Source of the DNA: Clostridiales bacterium
GTDB lineage: Bacteria; Bacillota; Clostridia; Lachnospirales; Lachnospiraceae
Reading direction: 5' to 3'
Length of the DNA: 64,000 bases
NCBI GenBank assembly: GCA_029007845.1
Contig: JAQXIP010000110.1
Coordinates: 1 to 64,000 of the forward strand
This document shows, one piece after another, positions 22,367-57,379 of this stretch (position 1 is its first letter; every line of letters starts with the position of its first letter). The notes beneath the pieces are model-generated. The model made no database searches, was not told the origin of the DNA, and was given only the letters and a program-made list of their open reading frames with translations. The translations under genes and the position numbers were made by a program.

Positions 22367-22630
22367 AGTCAAAAAGGCTTCTGCATGTAACAGTTTAGCC
22401 GTGATGAGCGCACAGCCGCCGGAAGCACGCAGAATATCAGATACCATGAAATACCCGCTTTTGCTCCATTGAACACGTAGCGGTACAAAGGTTTTGCAAA
22501 AAAATCAAAACCAAGTGCCGACGTGTTCAAAGGGATATTTCATGGTACCTGATATTCGGTGTGCTTCCGGCGGCTGTGCGCTCATCACGGCTGAACTGTT
22601 ACCTCTGCATAAAAAAGATGCAGGGCTTTT
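22367..22630 (+). terminator. hisD terminator split by a palindromic element
   Basis: The left arm (CAAAAAGGCTTCTGCAT, ending at 22386) and right arm (ATGCAGGGCTTTTTT, 22617-22631) would form one terminator hairpin if the 216-bp element and one copy of its 8-base target duplication were removed. The element sits in what was the loop region. The rest of the 400-bp hisD-hisB gap holds only this structure and the hisB promoter. Confidence 0.6.
22387..22602. mobile_element. MITE-like palindromic element, copy 1 (216 bp)
   Basis: A non-coding palindrome whose terminal 67-base arms match at all but four positions. Ends are GTAACAG and CTGTTAC. Inner shorter arms (TTGAACACGT / ACGTGTTCAA and GGTTTTG / CAAAACC) extend the hairpin to a short loop. 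The flanks TTCTGCAT (22379-22386) and CTCTGCAT (22603-22610) are an 8-base duplication with one mismatch. Copy 2 lies at 57134. GTAA ends and 8-bp duplications are the hallmarks of IS66-family transposition; no transposase is encoded in the window. Confidence 0.85.
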
Positions 22631-55915: not shown

Positions 55916-57126
55916 ATCATATGGTGCTGTTCCGGAAAAAAGAGGCAGTTGTCTGTGCCGGTTTATCAGACGGAAAACTGGAATCTGTCCAGCTCTCTCC
56001 AGCCGCTGATCAAGATGCCGTTGGGACGATCTATGTAGGAAAAGTACAAAATATCGTGAAAAACATCCACGGTGCTTTTGTAGAACTGGCTGAGAAAAAA
56101 ATTGGGTATCTTCCAATGGATGAGATCGAAAATTCTATTTTTTTAAATGAAAAAAAGAAACCGGTACTAAAGAATGGAGATGAGCTTCTCGTCCAGCTTA
56201 TAAAGGAACCGTTAAAAACAAAGCAGGCAGGCTTATCGACCAATCTGTCTTTAAATGGAACCTTTCTTGTACTGTCTTCCGGGAAAACAACCATTGGTGT
56301 TTCTTCTAAGATTAAAGAGAAAGAGGAACGGGAACGCCTCTCAAAGATTCTTTTCGGTTTTCGTAAGGAAACGAATGATTTGTTTGGAATCATTGCAAGA
56401 ACCAGTGCAAAAGGGGCGGAGGAAGCTGTTCTTCGAAAAGAATATGAACAGTTATCTTCCTGCTTTCACGACATTCTAAGGAAAGCCCGGCATGCTTCCT
56501 GCTTTTCCAGGGTGTATGTTCCAAGACCTTCTTATCTGGATTTTGCCTTTGACTCCAATTCCAGTTTCATAAACCAGATCACAACCGATGATAAAGATCT
56601 GTATTCAGAAATCAGCAAGCTGTATGAAGACCGGGAACAAAAGCCCAAGATTGTATTTTATCAGGACACACTGATTTCCATGGAACGATACTACAGTCTT
56701 ATATCCAGCATCAGCAAATGCTTAAAAAAACAGGTCTGGTTAAAGTCGGGTGCATATCTTGTCATTGAACCAACAGAGGCACTGACTGTAATTGATGTAA
56801 ATACCGGAAAAGCGATCGCAGGAAAACGGGCTCCGGAAGAGACCTTTCACAAAATCAATCTGGAAGCGGCAAAGGAAATTGCGCGCCAGATCCGGTTAAG
56901 GAACCTATCCGGCATCATTCTGGTAGATTTTATTGATATGAAAAATCCGGAGAATCAGGTCGATTTATTAGCCACATTTCGTAGATTCTTAAGTAAGGAT
57001 CCAGTGAAAACCATACTGGTAGATCAGACAAAACTCCAGCTTGTGGAAATAACCCGGATGAAGATCAAACGACCATTGTATGAAGAACTGGCGCAGCTTA
57101 ATCTGCTGGAAGAGTACCGGGAATGA
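55912..57126 (+). CDS. rng: Ribonuclease E/G family protein
   Basis: A 404-aa RNase G-type endoribonuclease. The N-terminal S1-like domain (IYVGKVQNIVKNIHGAFVELAEKKIGYLP, in two blocks) and the DNase I-like catalytic part with metal-binding Asp in VIDVNTGK and LVDFIDM are present. No long C-terminal scaffold of RNase E. The cluster of two radical SAM-linked genes, RNase G, rplU, prp and rpmA is common in Clostridia. A mobile palindrome sits eight bases after its stop. Confidence 0.88.
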   Translation: MNHMVLFRKKEAVVCAGLSDGKLESVQLSPAADQDAVGTIYVGKVQNIVKNIHGAFVELAEKKIGYLPMDEIENSIFLNEKKKPVLKNGDELLVQLIKEPLKTKQAGLSTNLSLNGTFLVLSSGKTTIGVSSKIKEKEERERLSKILFGFRKETNDLFGIIARTSAKGAEEAVLRKEYEQLSSCFHDILRKARHASCFSRVYVPRPSYLDFAFDSNSSFINQITTDDKDLYSEISKLYEDREQKPKIVFYQDTLISMERYYSLISSISKCLKKQVWLKSGAYLVIEPTEALTVIDVNTGKAIAGKRAPEETFHKINLEAAKEIARQIRLRNLSGIILVDFIDMKNPENQVDLLATFRRFLSKDPVKTILVDQTKLQLVEITRMKIKRPLYEELAQLNLLEEYRE

Positions 57127-57133
57127 AAAGATG

Positions 57134-57350
57134 GTAACAGTTCAGCCGTGACGAGTGCACAGCCGCCGGAAGCACGCAGAATATCAGGTACCATGAAATA
57201 CCCGCTTTCGCTCAGTTGAACACGTAGCGGTACTAAGGTTTTGCAAAAAAACGCAAAGCCAAGTACCGACGTGTTCAAAAGGATATTTCATGGTACCTGA
57301 TATTCTGCGTGCTTCCGGCGGCTGTGCGCTCGTCACGGCTGAACTGTTAC
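57134..57350. mobile_element. MITE-like palindromic element, copy 2 (217 bp)
   Basis: The second copy of the palindrome at 22387. Its 67-base outer arms match at all but one position, with the same GTAACAG/CTGTTAC ends and inner arms. It is flanked by a perfect 8-base direct repeat AAAAGATG (57126-57133 and 57351-57358), the target duplication. It fills most of the 374-base gap between rng and rplU; the remainder is the rplU promoter and leader. Confidence 0.9.
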
Positions 57351-57379
57351 AAAAGATGAAGCTTACAATGAAAAAAGGG

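Follow-up and report, generated by a model that had tools for sequence, protein, structure and literature searches.

The window analysed here is a stretch of 64,000 nucleotides from a Lachnospiraceae genome, and it carries two copies of a long hairpin-forming repeat, called the hairpin MITE below. Each copy has a conserved structured core between palindromic arms, ends in terminal inverted repeats and lies between direct repeats of eight bases, as follows.

22387..22602, + strand: hairpin MITE, copy 1 (216 bp)
22379..22386, no strand: left target-site duplication of copy 1, TTCTGCAT (7/8 against the right octamer)
22603..22610, no strand: right target-site duplication of copy 1, CTCTGCAT
22387..22400, + strand: left terminal inverted repeat of copy 1, GTAACAGTTTAGCC (13/14 to the consensus)
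22589..22602, - strand: right terminal inverted repeat of copy 1, GTAACAGTTCAGCC
22456..22531, + strand: conserved structured hairpin core of copy 1 (model R1, 73.5 bits)
57134..57350, + strand: hairpin MITE, copy 2 (217 bp)
57126..57133, no strand: left target-site duplication of copy 2, AAAAGATG
57351..57358, no strand: right target-site duplication of copy 2, AAAAGATG (8/8 against the left octamer)
57134..57147, + strand: left terminal inverted repeat of copy 2, GTAACAGTTCAGCC
57337..57350, - strand: right terminal inverted repeat of copy 2, GTAACAGTTCAGCC
57203..57279, + strand: conserved structured hairpin core of copy 2 (model R1, 83.3 bits)

An earlier note, made from the letters of the window, had placed the two near-palindromes at 22387-22602 and 57134-57350, and these positions are correct. 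The 8-base flanking repeats that it described are also borne out, being exact at copy 2 and matching at 7/8 positions at copy 1, and the likeness of the two copies, judged by eye to be about 90%, is 93% when computed. Copy 2 folds end to end; the folding energy of its whole length as RNA is -175.5 kcal/mol, compared with -60.7 (sd 4.4) for dinucleotide shuffles (z = -26). The palindrome is imperfect, with an asymmetric core. A stop codon immediately precedes each copy.

The number of two copies is right inside the window but not genome-wide. The window's genome is a fragmented draft (2.28 Mb, 115 contigs, 88% complete) with about 90 copies of the hairpin MITE; a covariance model of the core has 92 matches in it, and the 18-bp end has 87 forward and 77 reverse matches (164 in all; 0 for a control pattern). 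A DNA search of this genome scored 40 copies. Copies are mostly intergenic and their orientation relative to genes is mixed; for the latter reason a role in gene context or as a terminator was dropped. Several contigs of this draft start or end inside a copy, and such repeats thus mark contig boundaries. The same genome contains a second hairpin family on contigs 104, 32, 53 and 59 (L105-L108), which has the core in common, different arms and an end that reads approximately TTACTCAAACTTCGCACATG.

Shared ends, 8-bp duplications and a probable IS66-type mobiliser

The element has the features of a MITE: it is 216 bp long, has no transposase gene, is bounded by inverted ends of 14 bp (GTAACAGTTCAGCC), has a target duplication of a constant 8 bp and occurs in many dispersed copies. 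Among 42 end-bounded copies, the flanking octamers agreed at 8/8 positions in 16 and at 7/8 in nine, a total of 25. The chance of a match of at least 7/8 is about 4e-4 per copy if base frequencies are equal, and in a looser scan of shuffled flank pairs 2/207 had octamer repeats. The window's genome also contains deletion derivatives of 41, 55, 56, 61, 80, 110 and 128 bp with little or no interior. They occupy different sites, and most of them have perfect 8-bp duplications; those of 41, 55, 56, 61 and 80 bp lack the core and have 8/8 duplications at separate sites.

The same 14-bp end GTAACAGTTCAGCC bounds another MITE in this genome, whose interior consists of several small conserved hairpins and is unrelated to that of the hairpin MITE.

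L310, 1501-1665: 165-bp MITE, window's genome
L319, 1351-1515: 165-bp MITE, window's genome
L328, 1501-1665: 165-bp MITE, window's genome

Its duplications are perfect (CAATATAT, TAATGATA and AAAATAAG). It has relatives in four other genomes (G003, G105, G395 and G321), with 8/8 duplications in G003, and the loci compared with Rfam gave no match. The core-less derivatives and this unrelated interior, each with 8-bp duplications, suggest that an end of 14 bp is sufficient for transposition; with respect to transposition, the interior is cargo. The end motif GTNACNGTTCAGCCR was found in 111/397 Lachnospiraceae genomes, with a maximum of 68+69 sites and a reversed control near zero. Sampled loci in G003, G105, G208, G321, G268, G379 and G395 had varied MITE interiors with these ends and 8-bp duplications. 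The MITEs of G208 (L484-L486) are 211-242 bp long, have these same ends and contain an interior, GAACACTTGGCGAAGT...GTGTGAAAGCG, that is only distantly core-like.

In other Lachnospiraceae, the same ends lie beside IS66-family transposases. The earlier note proposed, as a check, to look for a full-length IS66 relative with the same terminal 20-30 bases, and such an element exists in G051. It is 2,308 bp long, encodes an IS66-family transposase of 581 aa and starts with GTTACTTTTCACGGGGTGGGGAAAT; the hairpin MITEs of G051 start with GTTACTTTTCATGGGGTGGGGAAAT and agree with it at 24/25 bases, and three of them carry 8/8 duplications. G404 has two copies of an IS66-family transposase gene, on two contigs; directly after each stands exactly GTAACAGTTCAGCC, and the DNA beyond it differs between the two. 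The gene terminates a short way before GGCTGAACTGTTAC, and the element is interrupted by contig ends, leaving only its right end visible. Its product scores 70.4 bits against Pfam PF03050 (DDE_Tnp_IS66; cut-off 23.1) and 135 bits against NCBIfam NF033517, which is under the equivalog cut-off of 180. C-terminal fragments of related transposases in G339 and G352, 74-79% identical, are likewise followed by GTAACAGTTCAGCC, and an IS66 remnant in G105 runs into GTAACAATTCAGCCCGCGCCATTCG, which the 165-bp MITE has as its end.

These transposases belong to a divergent clade, split from the ordinary IS66 of Lachnospiraceae with support of 100/100. Its intact members in G141, G332 and G361 are bounded by inverted ends and 8/8 duplications (GCCGGAAT, GTATTAGA and CAAAGCCC, respectively). 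The termini of the hairpin MITE and the G404 element read GTAAC, and those of the elements of G051, G141, G332 and G361 read GTTAC; ordinary Lachnospiraceae IS66 elements have GTAA[GC]CG, their ends being GTAA[GC]CGTCAAATAA. With regard to the IS66 accessory genes tnpA and tnpB, the divergent elements have, upstream of the transposase, one small ORF of 89-122 aa (L467 2112-2414, L453 1886-2155 and L473 352-720) without a Pfam or NCBIfam match. Thus, the IS66 origin suggested by the earlier note is supported by the ends shared with relatives, but the mobiliser is very probably of a divergent clade, distinct from ordinary IS66.

By the earlier note, an IS with these ends would be expected in the same genome. 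In this 88%-complete, fragmented assembly, profile and protein searches detected neither an IS66 gene nor a relative of the G404 protein. No autonomous element was found there by IS66 profile, unpaired ends, other interiors or protein search. This indicates that the partner is extinct in this genome or missing from the draft. The genes beside the solo ends examined included no transposase.

Taken together, we consider it probable (about 0.86) that the element is a non-autonomous MITE with the ends of a divergent Lachnospiraceae IS66 clade, mobilised in trans and carrying its hairpin core and palindromic arms as cargo. We infer the transposition chemistry as follows. A transposase of this IS66 clade, presumably once resident in the window's genome, would bind the 14-bp ends GTAACAGTTCAGCC in trans, make staggered cuts eight bases apart in the target and insert the element, which would produce the 8-bp duplications.

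Palindromic arms and the hairpin core

The arm consensus is a perfect 64-bp palindrome. In 29 full-length copies, 54 cells were changed in both arms (48 with the same change and six with different ones), compared with 22.6 expected from per-site rates, a comparison in which kinship between copies is not removed. Arm mismatches comprised 461 G.T and 387 A.C, which is a slight strand preference. This slight preference and the joint changes fit DNA-level copying between the arms better than they fit selection acting on a single RNA strand. We infer that the arms are homogenised in this way: one serves as the template for the other, probably through intrastrand template switching (quasipalindrome correction), which keeps them complementary. 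In G016, which has at least 150 hairpins, the sampled arms are hypervariable between copies and complementary within a copy, and constant blocks flank the variable block.

The core is the only part common to relatives in other species. In 29 aligned cores, CGCTTTCGCT, CGTARCGGTACTA and AAGTGCCGACG are kept and the remainder is variable; ten pairs have changes on both sides, compared with 4.7 in shuffles. The asymmetry of the core is conserved, with CGCTTTCGCT on one side only and a 2-nt bulge, and so is a mini-hairpin. That this asymmetry is kept despite arm copying suggests that selection acts on the core.

The core model matches 128/397 Lachnospiraceae genomes and 112/334 genera, and named hosts include Butyrivibrio, Pseudobutyrivibrio, Agathobacter, Coprococcus comes, Falcatimonas and Lachnospira. 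It has no match in the end-rich genomes G029 and G038, in the IS66 elements examined or in the searched collections of viruses, plasmids and phages. At least three kinds of end, each with 8-bp duplications, flank the core: GTAAC in the window's genome, GTTAC in G051 and CTCCC in Agathobacter, the last being the weakest case because it has only a few copies. It is conceivable, although we hold this only tentatively, that the core is a structured module maintained in its own right, as an RNA or single-strand-DNA fold with its own function, and that ends of different kinds (GTAAC, GTTAC and CTCCC) captured it in three or more lineages. It might then be a mobile regulatory or host-factor-binding hairpin in about one third of Lachnospiraceae genomes.

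Alternative explanations and known systems

The conservation of the core raises the alternative that the mobilising enzyme recognises the core itself, like in REP elements or integron attC, and that the ends are incidental. This would account for the core being the sole part conserved between species, for its occurrence under different ends with 8-bp duplications and for its conserved bulge and mini-hairpin. However, the same ends, with perfect 8-bp duplications, bound both the core-less derivatives and the MITE whose interior is unrelated, and the ends of the hairpin MITE match those of IS66-clade elements. In addition, structure-recognising enzymes of the REP/attC sort are not known to leave an 8-bp duplication. 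Recognition of the core is thus improbable; as the transposase recognition site it is largely refuted in the window's genome by the core-less derivatives and the 165-bp MITE, and it could still apply in G016 and G047, where duplications were not seen. About equally improbable is a mobiliser from outside IS66 that makes 8-bp duplications, for example of the IS256, IS1595, ISL3 or IS6 type. It would fit with the lack of a match when the window's genome was searched for IS66 genes, and with the presence of IS66 not following copy number: IS66 genes occur in 13/31 end-motif-rich genomes (E<=1e-10) versus 58/200 (E<=1e-20), and enrichment is not clear. Both observations, and the truncation of the G404 element by contig ends, also count against the favoured reading. 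Against it, IS66-clade transposases adjoin the exact 14-bp end and, in G051, the 24/25 end, and no transposase of another family lies beside the solo ends examined.

It is also imaginable that the repeats are fixed regulatory hairpins, such as terminators or structured RNAs, that spread by descent or recombination, and that the direct repeats are coincidental. The mostly intergenic copies, the structured core with paired changes on both sides and the stop codon directly before both window copies would agree with this. The duplications refute it, since they are 7-8/8, varied in sequence and present at 25/42 copies, compared with 2/207 shuffled flanks in the looser scan; the mixed orientation and the slight strand preference of the arm mismatches argue in the same direction. 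We regard this explanation as very improbable, the least probable of the three, and inserted copies may have a regulatory effect.

The reading as a MITE of an IS66-type transposase also agrees with comparison to known systems. Relatives with DDE_Tnp_IS66/NF033517 transposases bear the hairpin MITE's ends in other Lachnospiraceae, and they share 8-bp duplications with the IS66 family; a GTAA start is present where the terminus reads GTAAC, and GTTAC termini depart from it. Unlike ordinary IS66, the mobiliser forms a separate clade, has ends of the form GT[AT]AC... rather than GTAA[GC]CG..., lies below the NCBIfam equivalog cut-off and has a small upstream ORF without a known domain. Like other bacterial MITEs (Chunjie, MITEAba12, MITECca01, RUP and Correia/NEMIS), the element is short and gene-less and has terminal inverted repeats, a target duplication and a high copy number. 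A parental element in the same genome, which is usual but not obligatory for MITEs, was identified for the related elements of G051. It differs from them in being palindromic nearly throughout and in having several unrelated structured interiors per end pair across Lachnospiraceae. IS66 does not appear in a 2024 review of MITEs in prokaryotes (PMC10969869).

REP elements are also high-copy intergenic palindromes, and the core has GTAG and CGTC beside its stem. However, they are 20-40 bp long (PMC3733652), whereas the hairpin MITE is 216 bp long with an 8-bp duplication, and its tag-like bases are paired and co-vary (GCAG with CGCC). A REP/RAYT reading of these motifs was dropped because of this pairing and the duplication. 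The core resembles the structured RNAs of Rfam in its conserved stem with changes on both sides, but the hairpin MITE belongs to no Rfam family at gathering score. The window as a whole has none, ten related loci have tRNA only, and the best sub-threshold match has E = 0.32.

The hairpin MITE is part of a new, widespread MITE superfamily of Lachnospiraceae that very probably belongs to a divergent IS66 clade, and it has a recurrent structured module. No published description of the hairpin MITE family was found in the literature searched, outside which most subscription journals lie. A large set of apparently unnamed repeats of gut Lachnospiraceae is thereby tied to this clade, which makes their mobilisation testable. 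One core under several transposon ends, present in 112 genera and keeping its asymmetry while the arms co-change, also raises the question of whether bacterial MITEs carry selected modules or passive filler.

Paired and tandem cores in relatives

Cores in G037 and G047 are often paired in inverted orientation at a distance of 200-700 bp, and their flanks gave no consistent duplication. Two-hairpin units in G047 (L091, L093 and L096) and G037 (L135 and L155) have inverted cores, different arms and an A+T-rich spacer of 200-400 bp. The genes found within inverted hairpin pairs of relatives were ordinary housekeeping genes only. G147 has tandem arrays of three cores in the same orientation, about 164-187 bp apart, at 12444-12891 of contig 21 and at 125312-125713 of contig 59.
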